Translations under genes and position numbers: made by a program
Part shown: one piece after another, positions 40,715 through 49,307 of the stretch
Layout of the letters: every line of letters begins with the position of its first letter
How positions within the stretch are numbered: the stretch's first letter is position 1
From: Stenomitos frigidus ULC18
Lineage (GTDB): Bacteria; Cyanobacteriota; Cyanobacteriia; Leptolyngbyales; Leptolyngbyaceae
NCBI RefSeq assembly: GCF_003003795.1
Contig: NZ_PVWK01000126.1
Location: forward strand, 1-64,000
Direction of reading: 5' to 3'
DNA length: 64,000 bases
The notes under the pieces: model-generated
Told to the model about the DNA's origin: nothing
The model's database searches: none
Seen by the model: the letters and a program-made list of their open reading frames with translations, nothing else

Positions 40715-41620
40715 TTAAAACTGCTCTTCTTTAAATAAAGCGCGCTGCATTAGTGTTGAAAGCATTAAGATTACAGCTAAGACCAGGGTCAACGCTAACG
40801 CATAGCCCATATCTAAATTCTTAAAGGCATATTGATAGATTAAAAGCACGATCGTCAGCGTTGAATCGTTTGGGCCACCAGACCCTGCTGAGAAAATATA
40901 GGATTGATCAAACAGTTGAAACGTGCCAATAATTCCCATGACAATTACGAAGAATGTAACGGGTTGTAAGAAGGGCAATGTGATGTATAGTAGTTTCTCC
41001 CAACGACTGGCACCATCCAGCGTTGCTGCTTCATACAAGGTTTCTGGAACATCCTGTAACGCCGCTAGATAAATCACCATAAACAAGGGTGCCGTTGACC
41101 AAATGTTCATGATCATGATGCCCTTCAACGCAACGCCTGGATCGCCCAACCAGTTATAAGTTGGCAGATGTAAAAGGCTCAATACACTGTTCAGTAACCC
41201 GTTGGAATTATAAATCCACATGAAAATCAGGGTGAGTACCGCTGATGATGTGACGGTGGGTAGAAAAAACGCGACTCGAAACCAGGAACGTCCTTTAATC
41301 TGGCTATTGAGAATGAGAGCCAATCCCAATGCAAGAATGGTCTGGATGGGAACCACGATCGCCACATATTCAGCCGTATTTTTCAGCGCAATCCAAACGC
41401 GATCGTCTTGCGCAATACGAGCAAAGTTTTTCAGTCCCGTAAAGTGATAGCTGACCTCGCCCAAGAGCTGCACTTTCTGGAATGCCAAAGCGACTGCATA
41501 GACGATCGGCAGTATTAAGAACACTCCAGCAATCAGAATGGTTGGAGTCATAAACAGATAGCCTGTTATGCTCTCTTCTGTCTTCCGTTGTTTCCAACTA
41601 TCTTTAATCAATATATTCAT
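40715..41620 (-). CDS. Sugar ABC transporter permease, MalF/UgpA type
   Basis: 301 residues with six membrane helices. The EAA loop is LYEAATLDGASRWEKLLYIT followed by LPFLQP. The reverse-strand leader shows AGAGAGGAACCG close to ATG 41620. It follows the binding-protein gene after a 61-base gap filled by a strong hairpin. Confidence 0.96.
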   Translation of the reverse strand: MNILIKDSWKQRKTEESITGYLFMTPTILIAGVFLILPIVYAVALAFQKVQLLGEVSYHFTGLKNFARIAQDDRVWIALKNTAEYVAIVVPIQTILALGLALILNSQIKGRSWFRVAFFLPTVTSSAVLTLIFMWIYNSNGLLNSVLSLLHLPTYNWLGDPGVALKGIMIMNIWSTAPLFMVIYLAALQDVPETLYEAATLDGASRWEKLLYITLPFLQPVTFFVIVMGIIGTFQLFDQSYIFSAGSGGPNDSTLTIVLLIYQYAFKNLDMGYALALTLVLAVILMLSTLMQRALFKEEQF

Positions 41621-41640
41621 CGTGATCGGTTCCTCTCTTT

Positions 41641-41673
41641 AGACCTCCGATTTCTTCAAGAAATCGGAGGTCT
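41641..41673 (-). promoter_or_regulatory. Perfect 15-bp hairpin between binding protein and permease genes
   Basis: AGACCTCCGATTTCT and AGAAATCGGAGGTCT pair over a three-base loop (TCA). The position between the first and second gene of the operon matches that of mRNA-stabilising or attenuating hairpins in other sugar ABC operons, which make the binding protein in excess over the permeases. No T-run follows on the minus strand, so it is more likely a processing/stability element than a full terminator. Confidence 0.75.
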
Positions 41674-41681
41674 GGCTTCCT

Positions 41682-42974
41682 CTAATTTGCCAAATAAATT
41701 TCTCGATTAGCGGTTTCCTGAGCTTTTTTCATTGCTTGCGGTAGTGGTTGCTCCCCCAATAGAGCACTAATAAATTGATTGTTAAAATTCATGCGCATCG
41801 TGGGTAAATTCTCGCCTGCTTGCCAAATCGTGGCATACTCTGTACCCCTCACAAAGGGCGCATAAAGCGGATTATTGTCATACCCTAACCCTGCTAAAAC
41901 CGATCGACGCGTAGGGAGTGCCAAACCCTGTTTTGCCCAGGCTTTCATGCCTTCGGCTCCAGTGAGATAGGCAATCAGCTTCCAGGCCGCTTCTTTATGC
42001 TTTGCTTTGCGATTCATCACATACGCAACTGTGAATGCCATCGTGCCTTTTTTATCATTCATTGTAGGCACTTCTGCTGTGGCCATATCAATAGTTGGAA
42101 ACGTTTCTTTGAGATATGGAATGGCCCATGTACCTTCAAGCGTCATTGCCACTTTTCCTTGTCCAATCATATCGCTCCCTGATGTCGCGCCAACATCAGT
42201 GGGTTGTACTGCCGTGCGATCGCGTCGATACTGATCAATCACAAACTGCAAGCCCTTTAAACTATTAGCTTCTGCAAACGATGCGTAACCATTTTGTCCT
42301 ACTAAGTTGCCATTGAACGCTTTAATCACAAAAACCTGACGCGCCAATTCAGGGGCAATCCCAAAGCCATATTGATCGATTTTGCCATCATGATTGCGAT
42401 CGACCGTGAGTTTTTTAGAATCAGACACTAGGTCGTCCCAAGTTTTCGGTGGTTGCGCTATACCAGCAGCAGCAAAGGCTTTTTTATTGTAAATAAGTGC
42501 CAATGTCGAAACGTCTTTTGGCAGCCCGTACAGCTTGCCTTTGTGCTTAAAAGCATTCAGCATTAGCGGTTCAAAATCAGCGAGCTTAAATTCGGGTGTG
42601 ATGTATGCATCTAATGGTTCTAAGACGCTATATTTCATGAGTAACGGAGCCTCAAGTGCATCCAGATAGAAAACATCAGGAGCAACATCACCAATGAGGC
42701 GAGTCTTGATCACATCCATGTACTCACTGTTAATCACTTCGTATTTGATTTTGATGTTAGGATACTTGGCCTCAAAGCCCCGAAGCACTCGATTCAAAAG
42801 CTGGTTTTCATCGGGACTGCTCTGCCACCCGCTTAGCGTGACTGTAATGGGTGATTTAGCTTGTTTGAGTGTGTTCTGGCTCAACGAAGCTGTCTTTTGA
42901 TGACGACAGCTCGCTAACGCAATCGCAATAAGAAATAAACAACCTAAGCCAGTTTGTCTTAGACCAAGCATCAT
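41682..42974 (-). CDS. Sugar ABC transporter substrate-binding lipoprotein
   Basis: 430 residues of the family 1 extracellular solute-binding type. The signal peptide ends in the lipobox LASC (Cys at about residue 23), so the mature protein is lipid-anchored at the outer face of the plasma membrane. Conserved segments are PDVFYLDALEAPLLMKY, LYGLPKDVSTLALIYNKKAF and GKVAMTLEGTWAIPYL. First gene of the importer operon. No ATPase gene is nearby; a shared MsmK-like ATPase elsewhere is expected. Confidence 0.95.
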   Translation of the reverse strand: MMLGLRQTGLGCLFLIAIALASCRHQKTASLSQNTLKQAKSPITVTLSGWQSSPDENQLLNRVLRGFEAKYPNIKIKYEVINSEYMDVIKTRLIGDVAPDVFYLDALEAPLLMKYSVLEPLDAYITPEFKLADFEPLMLNAFKHKGKLYGLPKDVSTLALIYNKKAFAAAGIAQPPKTWDDLVSDSKKLTVDRNHDGKIDQYGFGIAPELARQVFVIKAFNGNLVGQNGYASFAEANSLKGLQFVIDQYRRDRTAVQPTDVGATSGSDMIGQGKVAMTLEGTWAIPYLKETFPTIDMATAEVPTMNDKKGTMAFTVAYVMNRKAKHKEAAWKLIAYLTGAEGMKAWAKQGLALPTRRSVLAGLGYDNNPLYAPFVRGTEYATIWQAGENLPTMRMNFNNQFISALLGEQPLPQAMKKAQETANREIYLAN

Positions 42975-43239: not shown

Positions 43240-45774
43240 ATGGAACAGACAGAAACGGTTGCCTGGTTACGCGAGAATACCAGCCTGAATGCCCTTTCAG
43301 AGAGTGCTTTGGAGGCGATCGCAGCAGCTATTCACGAAGAGACGGTACAAGAAAATCGACGGTTGGTTTTGGAGGACACACCGCCTGAATCGCTCTACAT
43401 TCTCAAGTCAGGACGGTTGGAAAGCTACCACACCAGTAAAACAGGGCTTGCCAATGCGGTTAGCCTTCTGCCAGGAACCATTCTGCACCTCAAAGAATTG
43501 GCGTTAGACCAACCTGTCGAAGCGACGGTCATCACACTCAGCGACTGTGTTTTGTGGACGATTCCTAGAGCGGAATTTTTGGCGATCGTCCAGCAGCACC
43601 CCGAAATTACTCAAACGTTGTCGCGGCAGTTAGCCAGCGAATTGGATGAGGTATCAGCACAACTGGCGTATGAACGCGAGCGACAGACGGCATTGCGCCC
43701 CTATCTGGTGCCCAAAGTGAAGCGGGGGATTGTCGGTTCTAGTCGCTATGCCACACGGTTGCGCCAGGAGATCAAAAAGGCGGCAGGCGATCGCCGATCG
43801 GTGCTGGTCTTCGGCGAACCAGGATTGGGCAAAGACAACGCGACTGCGCTGATTCATTTTGGCTCTCGCTACCGCCACGATCCCATCATTAAGATCGACT
43901 GCGATACCCTGCAAGCCAATGGCTCAGAGCTGTTTGGGCGAGTGGGTGGCAAAGCGGGACTGATTGATTGGTTGGGTGAAGGAACCCTGCTGCTCAACAA
44001 TGTGCAGGAGTTAACGCCGGACTTGCAGACGAAACTGGTGCGCCTCTTGGAAACCGGAGAATATGACTTGGTTGGGCGCGATGGCGAACCGCCTGCACCG
44101 TCCCGCCAATGTCAGGCACGGATCGTCATGACATCCGAGAAGGTGTTACCAACGCTGGAGCGCAAAGGTCTGGTGGGCCATATCATTCGCGTCCCACCGT
44201 TACGAGTGCGAAAAGCCGATATTTTATCTCAGGTAGAATATTATCTAAGCTTATTCTGTCGTTCTAGAGGGATTGCGAAACCAAACGTGACGCCAGAGGC
44301 ACTGCGCCGGCTTCAAGGCTACGACTTCCCTGGCAACTTAACGGAGTTGGAGAACCTGGTAGAACGGGCGGTGCTGCAATCAGACGGCGCTTCAGAACTC
44401 ACCGAAGAAGTGTTCTGGTCGGTCAGTGTGAAAACCAGGCGCTTTCGCGTCAATTTGCTCAATACGTCACCAAAGCTACGTCAGTTTTTACGGAGTCCCT
44501 GGTATCCCGATCGCATCAACTATGGCTTCACCCTCGGCTTTTTTGCGGTCGTTGTCGCCGTGCTGATGCTGGGGCCGCAGAGCCGTCATGACAACGTCGC
44601 TCTGAATATGTTTTGGGCGTGGTGGTGGCCTGTCATGCTGCTGGCGTTTCCCTTTGTCGGACGGCTCTGGTGTTCAGTTTGTCCGTTTATGATCTACGGC
44701 GAATTAGCCCAGAAGCTTTCGCTCTGGCTCTATCCCCGGCAGCTGTTGCCCTGGCCCCGACAGCAAGCCGAAAAATGGGGCGGCTGGTTTTTGTTTGGCC
44801 TGTTCACCTTGATTTTGCTGTGGGAAGAACTGTGGAATTTAGAGGACACCGCTTATTTGTCCGGTTGCCTGCTCTTACTGATCACGGCTGGTGCAGTCAT
44901 CTTCTCGCTGTTGTTTGAACGCCGCTTTTGGTGCCGCTACCTCTGCCCGATCGGCGGCATGAATGGACTGTTTGCCAAACTCTCGATGGTCGAACTCCGG
45001 GCACAGCAGGGCATCTGTTCCGCAACCTGCACGACCTATCAGTGCTATAAAGGCGGCCCACAGAAAGGTGAAGGTCAGGAAACGGGCGGCTGTCCGCTCT
45101 ATTCCCATCCGGCGCAGCTTGAAGACAACCGGGATTGCGTACTCTGCATGACCTGTTTGAAGGCCTGTCCCCATCGATCGGTGGAGTTAAACCTGCGACC
45201 ACCTGGCATTGAGCTATGGACAACCCATAAGCCAACCTACGCTGAGATTTGCCTGCTGTTCTTGCTCTTTGGCGCGGTGTTTCTGCATCGTCTGCCTGAG
45301 ATTGAGGCGCAGTTTGGCTGGCAGTTACACCTGGACAATTTTGGCATTCATGCGGGTGTTTCATTGCTGGCCTTGCTGGTGCCGGGTGCGATCGCCCTGG
45401 TGGCCCATGCCTTCATCCAACTACTTCAACGCAGCTACAAACCCCGACCTTTTTTGGAGTTAGCGTATGGCTATCTGCCCCTTGTCTTAGGCGCAAGTCT
45501 GGCACACTACTTGCGCTTAGGACTGGCTGAAGCAGGACAGGTGATTCCCGTTAGTTTCGCTACTTTTGGGTTTGGCACAGCAAATTTACCGATCGCTGTT
45601 GCCGATCCTGCCGTCATTGCCTTCTTGCAAAGCGTGACATTGATTTTTTCTTTCTGGCTCAGCGTGATTTTGACCCAAAAAATTGCCCGTCAGGCGCTGG
45701 TGAATCTCCTGCCACAGTATCTGGCAATGCTGGCGATCAGCTCTCTCTTGTGGAAGGTGATGGTCGGTTGGTGA
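43240..45774 (+). CDS. Fusion: cyclic-nucleotide-binding / AAA+ (NtrC-like, degenerate) / NapH-like Fe-S membrane protein
   Basis: 844 residues from ATG 43240 (AGAGGTAG upstream; the longer in-frame start at 43147 lacks this). Residues about 15-140 are a CAP_ED cyclic-nucleotide-binding fold. Residues about 160-390 are like the sigma-54-activator AAA+ domain: Walker A FGEPGLGKDN is kept, but the Walker B acids are gone (LLLNNVQEL) and the GAFTGA sigma-54 contact is replaced by FGRVGGKAG. There is no HTH. From about 420 on it is a membrane protein with Fe-S motifs CSVCPFMIYGE, CRYLCPIGGMN and a ferredoxin motif CVLCMTCLKACPH, as in NapH/NosR/CcoG proteins. Function unknown; a redox or ligand-gated electron-transfer protein is inferred. 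Confidence 0.9.
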   Translation: MEQTETVAWLRENTSLNALSESALEAIAAAIHEETVQENRRLVLEDTPPESLYILKSGRLESYHTSKTGLANAVSLLPGTILHLKELALDQPVEATVITLSDCVLWTIPRAEFLAIVQQHPEITQTLSRQLASELDEVSAQLAYERERQTALRPYLVPKVKRGIVGSSRYATRLRQEIKKAAGDRRSVLVFGEPGLGKDNATALIHFGSRYRHDPIIKIDCDTLQANGSELFGRVGGKAGLIDWLGEGTLLLNNVQELTPDLQTKLVRLLETGEYDLVGRDGEPPAPSRQCQARIVMTSEKVLPTLERKGLVGHIIRVPPLRVRKADILSQVEYYLSLFCRSRGIAKPNVTPEALRRLQGYDFPGNLTELENLVERAVLQSDGASELTEEVFWSVSVKTRRFRVNLLNTSPKLRQFLRSPWYPDRINYGFTLGFFAVVVAVLMLGPQSRHDNVALNMFWAWWWPVMLLAFPFVGRLWCSVCPFMIYGELAQKLSLWLYPRQLLPWPRQQAEKWGGWFLFGLFTLILLWEELWNLEDTAYLSGCLLLLITAGAVIFSLLFERRFWCRYLCPIGGMNGLFAKLSMVELRAQQGICSATCTTYQCYKGGPQKGEGQETGGCPLYSHPAQLEDNRDCVLCMTCLKACPHRSVELNLRPPGIELWTTHKPTYAEICLLFLLFGAVFLHRLPEIEAQFGWQLHLDNFGIHAGVSLLALLVPGAIALVAHAFIQLLQRSYKPRPFLELAYGYLPLVLGASLAHYLRLGLAEAGQVIPVSFATFGFGTANLPIAVADPAVIAFLQSVTLIFSFWLSVILTQKIARQALVNLLPQYLAMLAISSLLWKVMVGW

Positions 45775-45867
45775 GTTCAAGGCACCCCTTCATCATGCAA
45801 TGCTGGTGTGATGCAAGGCTGGTGGTCTTCCAGTTCAGACTTGATGTCCAGTTTTATGAGAGGTGTC

Positions 45868-46239
45868 ATGGCTCGCAAGCGCTTTGTGATTGAAATGGGT
45901 ATGGGTGTTGATCAACACGGGCAGGAACCGACAGTAGCGGCGGCTCGCGCTGTCCGTAACGCGATCGCTCATAATGCCCTTCCTGGCATTTGGGAAGTCG
46001 CTGGTTTAAGCGATCCTGATCAGATGCTGGTCGAAGTGCAGGTTGCTGTCCCATACCCTGACCAGGTAAGACAAGCAGATGTGCTGGCAGTGCTGCCTTT
46101 TGGACGCAAAACGCTAAAAGTAGAGGCGGGCGGCATGATTGTTCAAGGCCGCGCGATCGCGTCGCTGCATGACAAGAACGATGAAATGCTGGTCGCCGTC
46201 GCCTCTGTGACGGTATTGGTTGAAATGCCGGATGCGTAG
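45868..46239 (+). CDS. Lin0512-family protein
   Basis: 123 residues from ATG 45868, with GAGAGG just before it; an upstream in-frame ATG at 45808 is not preferred. The pattern RFVIEMGMGVDQHGQ, AAARAVRNAIAHNALP and LPFGRKTLKVEAGGMIV fits the Lin0512 family, short proteins of unknown function that form rings in structural studies as I recall. It follows the fusion gene by 93 bases on the same strand. Confidence 0.88.
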   Translation: MARKRFVIEMGMGVDQHGQEPTVAAARAVRNAIAHNALPGIWEVAGLSDPDQMLVEVQVAVPYPDQVRQADVLAVLPFGRKTLKVEAGGMIVQGRAIASLHDKNDEMLVAVASVTVLVEMPDA

Positions 46240-47081: not shown

Positions 47082-49307
47082 CTAACTGGGAGCGGCGGGA
47101 CGATCGCCCAGTTTGAAATAAAACGTAGCGCCCTGACCGGGGTGGCTTTCTGCCCAAATGTGACCGCCGTGGCGCTGGATAATACGATGAACGATCGCCA
47201 ACCCGATACCGCTACCCTCAAACTCTGCCTGCGAGTGTAAGCGCTGAAACGCACCAAAAAGCTGGTCAGCATACGCCATCTGAAACCCGATGCCGCGATC
47301 GCGCACATAGATAATGTCGTCAGGCAAGGTGCCGATCTCAATGTGGGCAGGCGGTTGCTGACGAGTAAACTTAATGGCGTTATCCAGTAGATTGACAAAG
47401 ACTTGTCGAAGCAGGGTTTTGTCACCGCTTACGGTAGGCAGTGCGCCAAGGCTGCACTGTATCTGCTGGGGATCACTTACTACTTCTGTAGTACTGGTAA
47501 CTATGATCGCCTCTGGTCGTTGAGCGAGAACTGCTAGCACTAGCTGATTCAAGTCAATGAGCGTCTCTGCCATCGGCCGTCGCCCAACCCGCGAGAGCGT
47601 CAGCAGACCGTCGATCAGCTCTTTCATTTTGTGACTGCTGTCTTGAATAATTTCAAGGTAGTGCATTACTTTTGGATCAGTCAGCAACTCATTTTGCTGT
47701 AGGCGATCAGTTAACGCTGCAACAAACCCGCTGATGTGCCGTAGGGGCGCGCGCAAATCATGGGAAACCGAGTAGGAGAAGGCTTCTAGCTCCTGATTGA
47801 CAATTTCAAGCTGTGCCGTGCGATCGACCAGCGTCTGACGTGCTTCAACTAGTTCTGTAATGTTGCGGGAGGAACCAATGAGCGCGTAGACCTCCCCATT
47901 TGGCTTCTTTAACGGAATCTTGTAGGTGTCAAAATGCAACAGACCTGACGGCGTCGTGTAGCATTCCTGGAAATGTAGGGTTTCGCCAGACGTAAAGACT
48001 TGGTGGTTTTGTTCGGCAAACGTGGCGGCCAAGTCTGGGGCAAAGCATTCAAAGATCGTTTTACCAGCAAGCTGGTGGCGACTCTCCCAACCGATTAAGT
48101 GAGCGAGCGCATCATTACCGAAGAGCATCCGCATCGTGTCGCGCTCGACCACAAAAATGCCGTCAGGGAGCATGTTGATAAAGGTCATGAGTTCAGCAGT
48201 GCGCTGCTCAACGAGTGCCTCCAGCTCTAAATTTTGTTGCTCTAGGGTTTGGTTGAGCTGTCGAATTTGGGCTTCTGCCTGTTTGCGATCGGTAAAATCA
48301 AGCACCGCTCCCATCATGCGGATCACTTGACCCGATGCATCATCAAGACCACGCCCTCTACCGATCAGCCAGTGCAGGCTCCCATCGGGATGAATGACAC
48401 GGTACTCCGCTTCAAAGTTAGTCTTCGTTTCCAAGGCCTGTGTGATTGCCTGCTCAACCCGATCAATATCCTCAGGGTGAACCCGATCGCGCCATGCCTG
48501 GTAGCTCGGTTGCACCTCACCAGGCACCAACCCTAACAAGCGTGCGTGGTTCTCGTTCCAGATGACCTCGTTTGTGGGTAGGTGCCAGTCCCAAATGCCA
48601 ATGTGGGTAAAGTCGAGAGCAAGCTTAAAGAACGCCTCATTTTCGCGCAGAGCCATTTCAGAGCGTTTGCGATCGGTCACATCCACACCAATACCCCACG
48701 CCCTCCAGCCAGGAATGGGAAAGCGATCGGAGATATTAGACCAGGCAACGGTTTTCACGCTGCCATCACGACACGTCACGTCCCATTCCCAATCACGGTA
48801 ATCGTTACCACGCCCTGCCCAAGTGTCGACCATGTGCTGACGATAGCCTGCATCAGGGTAGAGCAACGCCATGGCCTGTGGATTGCCAATCATTACCGCC
48901 GCACTGTAGCCAGTGACCCGCTCAGCCTCATGGTTCCAGACAACCATTGTGTTCTGATTGTCAAAGGCACCGAGCATCACAGGCATGTTTTGCAGAATTA
49001 AGCGTACCCGTTCTTCGCTCTCTCGCAGCAGCGTTTCTGTTTGCTGTTGGGTGCGAAGCGATCGGCGTGAAAGCCAGTAAAGCATCCAGGCAGTGGTGCC
49101 AGCAAAGATCAAATCTTTGACATCTTGCCAGTAGGGTAGCACTGTCAAGCTAGGGACAACCGTGTCTAGCCAAAAATGCGATAGAGCAATCCACAAAACA
49201 GCGACGATAAAATAGGCTCCAGCAAGCTTTTGGGGCAGCAACCTGAGCGATCGACGCTGCAATTCAGAAGCAACGGGACGTTTGAAATGGGCGCTTTCAT
49301 CGTGCAT
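47082..49307 (-). CDS. Multi-PAS sensor histidine kinase
   Basis: 741 residues. Two N-terminal membrane helices (about 25-45 and 58-78), PAS/PAC domains at about 90-215, 220-340 and 370-490, a coiled coil between the second and third, HisKA with the phospho-acceptor SVSHDLRAPLRHISG at about 520, and HATPase with FVNLLDNAIKFT, VRDRGIGF and GSGIGLAIVHRI. It resembles the cyanobacterial phytochrome-type HisKA (FSYSVSHDLRAPL). No intact response regulator lies next to it; the broken receiver gene downstream could have been its partner. Confidence 0.96.
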   Translation of the reverse strand: MHDESAHFKRPVASELQRRSLRLLPQKLAGAYFIVAVLWIALSHFWLDTVVPSLTVLPYWQDVKDLIFAGTTAWMLYWLSRRSLRTQQQTETLLRESEERVRLILQNMPVMLGAFDNQNTMVVWNHEAERVTGYSAAVMIGNPQAMALLYPDAGYRQHMVDTWAGRGNDYRDWEWDVTCRDGSVKTVAWSNISDRFPIPGWRAWGIGVDVTDRKRSEMALRENEAFFKLALDFTHIGIWDWHLPTNEVIWNENHARLLGLVPGEVQPSYQAWRDRVHPEDIDRVEQAITQALETKTNFEAEYRVIHPDGSLHWLIGRGRGLDDASGQVIRMMGAVLDFTDRKQAEAQIRQLNQTLEQQNLELEALVEQRTAELMTFINMLPDGIFVVERDTMRMLFGNDALAHLIGWESRHQLAGKTIFECFAPDLAATFAEQNHQVFTSGETLHFQECYTTPSGLLHFDTYKIPLKKPNGEVYALIGSSRNITELVEARQTLVDRTAQLEIVNQELEAFSYSVSHDLRAPLRHISGFVAALTDRLQQNELLTDPKVMHYLEIIQDSSHKMKELIDGLLTLSRVGRRPMAETLIDLNQLVLAVLAQRPEAIIVTSTTEVVSDPQQIQCSLGALPTVSGDKTLLRQVFVNLLDNAIKFTRQQPPAHIEIGTLPDDIIYVRDRGIGFQMAYADQLFGAFQRLHSQAEFEGSGIGLAIVHRIIQRHGGHIWAESHPGQGATFYFKLGDRPAAPS

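Follow-up and report, generated by a model that had tools for sequence, protein, structure and literature searches.

A cyanobacterial fusion of a CNBD-like fold, a sigma-54-activator-type pseudo-AAA+ domain and a NapH-like Fe-S membrane module

Stenomitos frigidus ULC18 encodes a protein that joins, in one chain, a fold resembling a cyclic-nucleotide-binding domain (CNBD), an AAA+ domain of the sigma-54-activator type and a NapH-like iron-sulfur (Fe-S) membrane module. The gene lies on the forward strand of contig NZ_PVWK01000126.1, at positions 43240-45774 of a stretch of 64,000 nucleotides (the window), and forms an open, intact reading frame (ORF) of 844 amino acids that starts with ATG at 43240. 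An earlier model-made note on the same DNA (the original prediction) read the product as a ligand-controlled electron-transfer protein that reuses an old ATPase. We find that the fusion is old, cyanobacterial and real. With moderate confidence, we regard it as a membrane-bound electron-transfer protein of cyanobacteria with a built-in, non-hydrolysing regulatory module.

The same architecture recurs across cyanobacteria. In a scan of named genomes, the 80 best loci were kept from among 511 relatives, and record titles place all 80 in cyanobacteria. Of these loci, 79 contain the full fusion as a single open frame of 839 amino acids or more. The remaining one, L121, codes for this protein too, but a frameshift interrupts it close to its end. 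Homologues (expect value (E) ≤ 1e-20) occur in 202 of 291 genomes and 100 of 130 genera of the taxonomic class, counts that include the sister class 2 and the CNBD-less members described below. The fusion protein is strongly conserved, at about 55-92% identity. The original prediction had raised the concern of a frameshift or mis-joined genes. Such an artefact, whether by frameshift, mis-assembly or chance joining of adjacent genes, has next to no probability, since the full-length, single-frame fusion recurs across loci and genomes and the frameshift in L121 splits the same protein instead of joining two. The S. frigidus genome itself holds the full-length gene once and, beyond that, a weak match to the CNBD alone (6e-4). 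We found no description of this fusion in an open-access library without preprints; among the terms searched in PMC8002359 and PMC12694226, there was no mention of such a protein.

Profile searches bear out the three-part layout proposed originally (Table 1). Pfam matches the protein to cNMP_binding (residues 35-120, 1.9e-14, 53.8 bits with a cut-off of 27.5), Sigma54_activat (164-304, 6.7e-18, 65.4 bits with a cut-off of 20.2), AAA_lid_14 (322-384, 1.1e-12) and, in two stretches, Fer4_5 (the best at 545-581, 6.2e-9). The 16 Pfam families listed to E 10 are all of CNBD, AAA+ or Fer4_5 kinds and include no helix-turn-helix (HTH), as the original prediction had it. In NCBIfam, the NapH family matches residues 472-650 (5e-14, 52.4-54.4 bits with a cut-off of 213), while NorR, NifA, PspF and others match the AAA+ part, all far under their own cut-offs. 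Two structure models were made from 58 sequences each, one of the whole protein (mean predicted local distance difference test (pLDDT) 73.1, predicted template modelling score (pTM) 0.47) and one of the membrane part (73.6 and 0.75). They give the CNBD, a long helix at residues 122-162, the AAA+ domain and nine membrane helices. The long helix is presumably comparable to the connecting helix of CRP-type dimers.

Residues were counted in a set of relatives that was reduced from 177 rows to 174 non-identical sequences and then to 156 that are distinct over residues 170-840. These comprise 119 class-1 sequences, 32 class-2 sequences and five members of family f2 (L067-L070, L072), which are shorter and lack the CNBD. 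Nine fragments or second views (L071, L074-L081) were excluded before counting.

The descent of the AAA+ part from an NtrC-type, sigma-54-activator domain is supported. In addition to the Pfam match, residues 167-395 superimpose on NtrC1 (1ny6) with a Z score of 20.0 (VIA-align; root-mean-square deviation (rmsd) 5.0, 221 residues aligned) and the part matches NifA at E 7.7e-26. Judged by its residues, the domain is a pseudo-ATPase. The Walker A Lys is present in all 156 relatives and the catalytic Walker B Glu in none of them; in the window protein, Walker A survives in an unusual form, GEPGLGKD, and the ‘DE’ of Walker B is replaced by ‘NN’ (residues 253-254), confirming the reported loss of the Walker B acids. 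A GAFTGA-like motif is likewise found in 0 of the 156, so that none of them combines this motif with an intact Walker B. The original prediction had called the motif replaced; its loss stands, but an alignment with NifA, CapR, PspF and LuxO shows an 8-residue deletion at this stretch. A domain that has lost hydrolysis yet keeps the Lys could bind nucleotide statically or serve a purely structural role. Because the catalytic Glu is gone family-wide, the AAA+ domains may bind nucleotide statically at most, which agrees with the proposed reuse of an old ATPase without catalysis. The fusion protein has the AAA+ and lid fold and sequence in common with bacterial enhancer-binding proteins (NifA, PspF, NtrC1, FleQ, VpsR). 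Unlike them, it lacks GAFTGA, the catalytic Walker B Glu, a listed HTH and a sigma-54 match in its own genome, and its lid is followed by membrane helices. Binding of c-di-GMP in the manner of FleQ or VpsR was also considered.

Could the AAA+ part nevertheless remain an ATP-dependent remodeller, aided by residues in trans and acting on the sigma-70 holoenzyme or an Fe-S partner? The invariant Walker A Lys would fit such an activity, as would the Asp kept at the Walker B position in 12 of 32 class-2 and four of five f2 sequences and the Arg at the sensor II position in 26 of 156. We nonetheless hold it to be very unlikely, given the family-wide absence of the Walker B Glu, the change of the Walker B Asp to Asn in 118 of 119 class-1 sequences, and a Glu directly before the Walker A Lys in 71 of 156 (66 of 119 in class 1, all five in f2), a position where all 32 class-2 sequences have the classical Gly. 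In f2, the Walker B Glu is missing from every member.

One relative carries the pseudo-AAA+ domain twice. L036 (4846-8208; genus g39) encodes a version of 1,120 residues with a second AAA+ copy, 52% identical, between the CNBD and the usual one. This extra copy reads GEAGVGKV and LVLDH at its Walker motifs and is likewise without the catalytic Glu and GAFTGA. Such a duplication is easier to reconcile with a role as scaffold or switch than with a remnant in decay. Two further genomes (G025 and G040) resemble L036 by match range only.

Sigma-54 is effectively absent from the taxonomic class, as the original prediction held for cyanobacteria. Among 194 class genomes, four match the sigma-54 DNA-binding family (Sigma54_DBD), each only in part, over 33-41 residues, and one of them above the cut-off; the S. 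frigidus genome has no match. A survey from 2011 reports that sigma-54 and its activators are absent from all 29 cyanobacteria examined, and that activators were selected by GAFTGA, a filter that would exclude the fusion family (PMC3162934). Two members of the phylum outside the class, G354 and G380, hold near-intact sigma-54-activator genes (with GAYTGA and GAFTSA, respectively), and a sigma-54 DNA-binding domain was found in neither. These activators do not refute our reading because they are separate proteins without a membrane part. The neighbours of the G380 gene look foreign, which makes contamination of this contig possible. The G354 gene (L183, 4252-6210) encodes a 653-residue protein in which two sigma-54-activator AAA+ domains stand in tandem; GAYTGA and Walker B are intact in the first of them.

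The N-terminal domain is CNBD-like in fold. Residues 1-120 superimpose on PKG with a Z score of 17.0 (VIA-align; rmsd 2.3, 120 residues aligned), and the fold matches comprise PKG and plant-channel CNBDs at Z 16-18. The description of the domain as a cyclic-nucleotide sensor in the original prediction is not upheld. In an alignment to the PKA regulatory domain, the Glu and Arg of the phosphate-binding cassette correspond to L84 and V93. Of the CNBD-containing sequences, none of the 114 in class 1 and none of the 31 in class 2 has Glu at position 84; Arg at position 93 is present in none of the 114 and in one of the 31. The domain thus shares its fold and overall sequence with CNBDs of the CRP/PKA type but lacks their cassette Glu and Arg at the aligned positions, and no CRP-type HTH is listed. 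From these residues, it is probably not a canonical cyclic-nucleotide receptor. That the protein is an electron transferase under canonical cyclic-nucleotide control appears unlikely to us, even though the PF00027 match and the good fold favour it and a shifted cassette is conceivable by sequence (Glu86, two residues off, is present in 104 of 114 class-1 proteins and Arg at residue 95 in 28 of 114). In addition to the missing cassette residues, the plant-channel CNBDs of the same fold are not known to bind cyclic nucleotides.

Some members dispense with this domain altogether. The CNBD is missing by BLAST in eleven relatives examined, and Pfam searches to E 0.1 agree in all eight that were scanned. 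They fall in five places of a quick tree in which several inner branches are weakly supported: family f2, three f23 sequences, L060, L057 and, inside class 2, L073. No separate CNBD gene lies beside the eleven within flanks of about 1.5 kb (tblastn, E up to 1).

The membrane part contains the most conserved stretch of the protein. Across 58 sequences, the mean majority share is highest in the Fe-S stretch at residues 558-666 (0.94), compared with 0.62 in the CNBD, 0.75 in the AAA+ domain and lid, and 0.70 in the last five helices. Twelve cysteines (478, 481, 565, 569, 593, 597, 602, 618, 633, 636, 639 and 643) are kept in all 156 relatives, and each of the six histidines counted is conserved in at least 57 of 58 sequences. 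The CxxCxxCxxxCP motif at 633-644 supports the original description of a NapH-like membrane part with several Cys motifs. A second, widened cysteine set precedes it, with the spacing C593-x3-C597-x4-C602-x15-C618. Loops assigned to the inside have mean Lys plus Arg counts of 6.9, 5.4, 11.6, 3.2 and 1.0, versus 1.5, 0.0, 1.1 and 0.8 for the others; by the positive-inside rule, both Cys pairs and both cluster motifs would be cytoplasmic. When seven sequences are aligned, among them proteins from Deinococcus, a haloarchaeon and Sulfurovum, the two transmembrane Cys pairs are invariant, as are C207, C243, C246 and C249 (membrane-part numbering).

NapH functions in electron transfer from quinol to Fe-S centres. 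NapH/MauN proteins (TIGR02163, Fer4_5) resemble the fusion protein in their CxxCP/CxxxCP pairs and ferredoxin-type cysteines, which are predicted to be cytoplasmic, and in their helical membrane core; the fusion protein departs from them by the wider spacing of its first cysteine set, by five additional helices at the C-terminus and by the CNBD and AAA+ domains at the N-terminus. The three neighbours of the fusion gene that were scanned include no nap-type family. The likeness to NosR, also proposed originally, is low (14.9 bits against 1000), and Pfam lists no FMN-binding domain. The membrane part occurs alone elsewhere: ‘4Fe-4S binding proteins’ of Deinococcus ficus (WP_027463891.1, 31% identity over this part) and Natrinema pallidum (WP_138655629.1, 23%) have the same transmembrane Cys pairs and, to E 0.01, match Fer4_5 only, without the CNBD or AAA+ domain of the fusion. 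Weak helical-bundle matches to the membrane model (Z < 6) were dismissed.

A sister group of the window protein's class (class 1) offers a functional clue. Class 2 is 38-42% identical to the window protein and groups as one branch that contains the CNBD-less L073 and has a Shimodaira-Hasegawa-like approximate likelihood ratio test (SH-aLRT) value of 100. The tree behind this is a quick one of 89 rows, made without bootstrap and with long outgroup branches. Class-2 members in Aulosira (NIES50_69290) and Pseudanabaena galeata (OA858_RS24855) have the same three-part architecture at 39-41% identity. Class 2 differs from class 1 in its separate clade, its classical Walker A Gly and the cysK gene (cysteine synthase) directly downstream. 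Among the 30 best class-2 loci, 19 have cysK downstream on the same strand, with a gap of <45 bp in 15 and of 229-1128 bp in four; cysK lies near 3 of 145 class-1 loci, a set that is partly non-independent (some genes come from two collections) and includes 47 loci under 6 kb with flanks of about 1.5 kb. The link between class 2 and cysK is firm.

Further neighbours were surveyed in 26 wider class-2 loci, hand-chosen with and without adjoining cysK. This gene is present in 18 of them, once several genes upstream. Other neighbours are a Nudix protein (8 loci), RND efflux (6), nitronate monooxygenase, photosystem II D1, rhodanese, a YgaP-like membrane protein and a methyltransferase (5 each), Rieske/PetC and a DsbA-like protein (4 each), cytochrome bd, ArsR and a pyridine-nucleotide-disulfide oxidoreductase that we read as SQR-like (3 each), and a rubrerythrin-family protein that we read as AcsF-like (2). 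For ten clusters, one representative was checked with Pfam, and the other labels are our own readings. A low-oxygen or sulfide setting for class 2 is suggestive only. For the redox partner of class 2, a link to sulfur assimilation is probable, perhaps where oxygen is low or sulfide is present. Two class-2 records are annotated ‘nitrogen assimilation regulatory protein’ and ‘cyclic nucleotide-binding domain-containing protein’; such annotations would mislead.

How might the parts work together? We take the membrane part as the effector because its Fe-S stretch is the most conserved, it occurs alone elsewhere and it persists without the CNBD. By homology to NapH, electron transfer between quinone and cytoplasmic clusters would be expected. 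The nine-helix membrane part may take electrons from the quinone pool, or give them to it, and pass them by way of the two membrane-edge CxxCP/CxxxCP sites to two putative [4Fe-4S] clusters on the cytoplasmic side. The CNBD-like domain would sense a protein, or a ligand other than a canonical cyclic nucleotide, and set the arrangement of the AAA+ domains through the long helix. This arrangement could in turn gate the access of a redox partner by exposing or hiding the clusters.

Several observations weigh against an electron-transfer protein of this kind. No conserved neighbour ties class 1 to a substrate: in 100 loci, the widest non-self cluster is present in 21, with side and orientation mixed, and the next in 17. 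For class 2, 11 of the 30 loci have no cysK in the available DNA (three of these have ≤165 bp downstream) and the low-oxygen or sulfur neighbours are each present in 2-5 of 26 loci only. The match to NapH does not reach the curated cut-off, the first cysteine set departs from the standard ferredoxin motif with unusual spacing, and not every distant relative in the 7-sequence alignment shares four of the 12 cysteines. The geometry of the Fe-S region is not predicted (pLDDT about 30 at residues 579-662), and the membrane model has no solved relative, with 0 matches at E ≤ 0.001 and no Z ≥ 8. In addition, the CNBD-less members show that half of the regulatory module is dispensable.

Signals may instead run in the opposite direction. 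The protein would then be a membrane-tethered redox sensor, in which the Fe-S and membrane part reads the quinone or oxygen state and signals through the AAA+ domain and CNBD to a cytoplasmic partner. These two domains are indeed those of signalling proteins, and class 1 has no conserved redox-partner gene in the 100 loci. NosR-type proteins combine regulation with electron transfer, a parallel tempered by the low NosR match. Against a sensor stand the lack of any known output (there is no listed HTH, GAFTGA or catalytic Walker B), the membrane part standing alone in Deinococcus and a haloarchaeon, and the retention of all 12 cysteines in the CNBD-less members. We give this alternative a minor share of our confidence and continue to prefer an electron-transfer protein with a regulatory module.

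The gene adjoining the fusion gene in the window belongs to the Lin0512 family, and the original prediction proposed to check their co-occurrence. A pairing is not supported: Lin0512 lies near the fusion gene in 0 of the 145 other class-1 loci and, among the loci examined, adjoins it in the window alone. In the sister genome G258, the two genes share a contig at a distance of about 10.7 kb. Members of this family occur in 104 of the 291 class genomes; fusion homologues occur in 93 of these 104 and in 109 of the 187 without it, a difference confounded by clade and genome size and drawn from a homologue list that takes in genomes with class 2 only. We rejected Lin0512 as a partner and regard the adjacency as a local arrangement. 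A link to defence was also rejected, as the PADLOC matches reflect common AAA+ and CNBD families. Elsewhere in the window, the fusion gene is flanked by a divergent pair of genes, a transporter-permease-like ORF (our reading) and a gene for an extracellular solute-binding protein; a histidine kinase gene with several PAS domains lies downstream of Lin0512.

Table 1. Coordinates of the fusion gene, its parts and associated loci. Positions are those of the window, except in the last row, where they are those of the named loci.
Feature	Position	Strand	Basis or remark
Whole gene: CNBD-like fold, sigma-54-activator-type pseudo-AAA+ domain, NapH-like Fe-S membrane module	43240-45774	+	ORF, Pfam/NCBIfam
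CNBD-like domain without cassette Glu/Arg, residues 1-118	43240-43593	+	PF00027, fold match, residue counts
Long connecting helix, residues 122-162	43603-43725	+	Model secondary structure; low confidence at 151-162
Sigma-54-activator-type AAA+ domain and lid, residues 164-384	43729-44391	+	PF00158, PF25601, NtrC1 fold match
Walker A GEPGLGKD, residues 192-199; Lys198 invariant, Gly197 often Glu	43813-43836	+	Residue counts
Site of deleted GAFTGA loop, residues 230-245	43927-43974	+	8-residue gap versus NifA, CapR, PspF, LuxO
Degenerate Walker B LLLNN, residues 250-254; N254 in place of catalytic Glu	43987-44001	+	Residue counts
Transmembrane helices 1-4, residues 421-558, with CxxCP at 478-482	44500-44913	+	Models, charge count, invariant Cys
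Predicted cytoplasmic cysteine region: CxxxCP 565-570; C593/C597/C602/C618; CxxCxxCxxxCP 633-644	44932-45171	+	Cys counts; low model confidence
Five further transmembrane helices, residues 667-843; conserved His683, His704, His756, Glu764	45238-45768	+	Model, conservation, charge count
Lin0512-family gene, adjoining the fusion gene	45808-46239		PF09585, 139.5 bits
Transporter-permease-like ORF and extracellular solute-binding protein gene	40715-42974	-	Authors' reading; PF01547
Histidine kinase gene	47082-49307	-	
Class-2 paralogue loci	L179 5755-9446; L180 5905-9542; L193-L222		Upstream of cysteine synthase in 19/30; two further cases on plasmids (Aulosira, Pseudanabaena)

The fusion represents known parts in a new combination and not a new kind of system. 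Its wider interpretation is tentative: it may constitute an ancient and widespread cyanobacterial redox gate, in which a stranded sigma-54-type AAA+ domain, serving as a static pseudo-ATPase that reads a nucleotide or ligand, and a re-purposed CNBD would together switch electron flow between the quinone pool and [4Fe-4S] clusters, with class 2 supplying reductant, where sulfide is present or oxygen is low, to the sulfur chemistry that serves CysK. The class-2 cysK operon provides a directly testable link to sulfur physiology. If our reading is true, a regulated entry or exit point would be added to cyanobacterial electron transport, and the ATPase of a transcription activator would be seen to survive as a pseudo-enzyme among organisms that lack its sigma factor.

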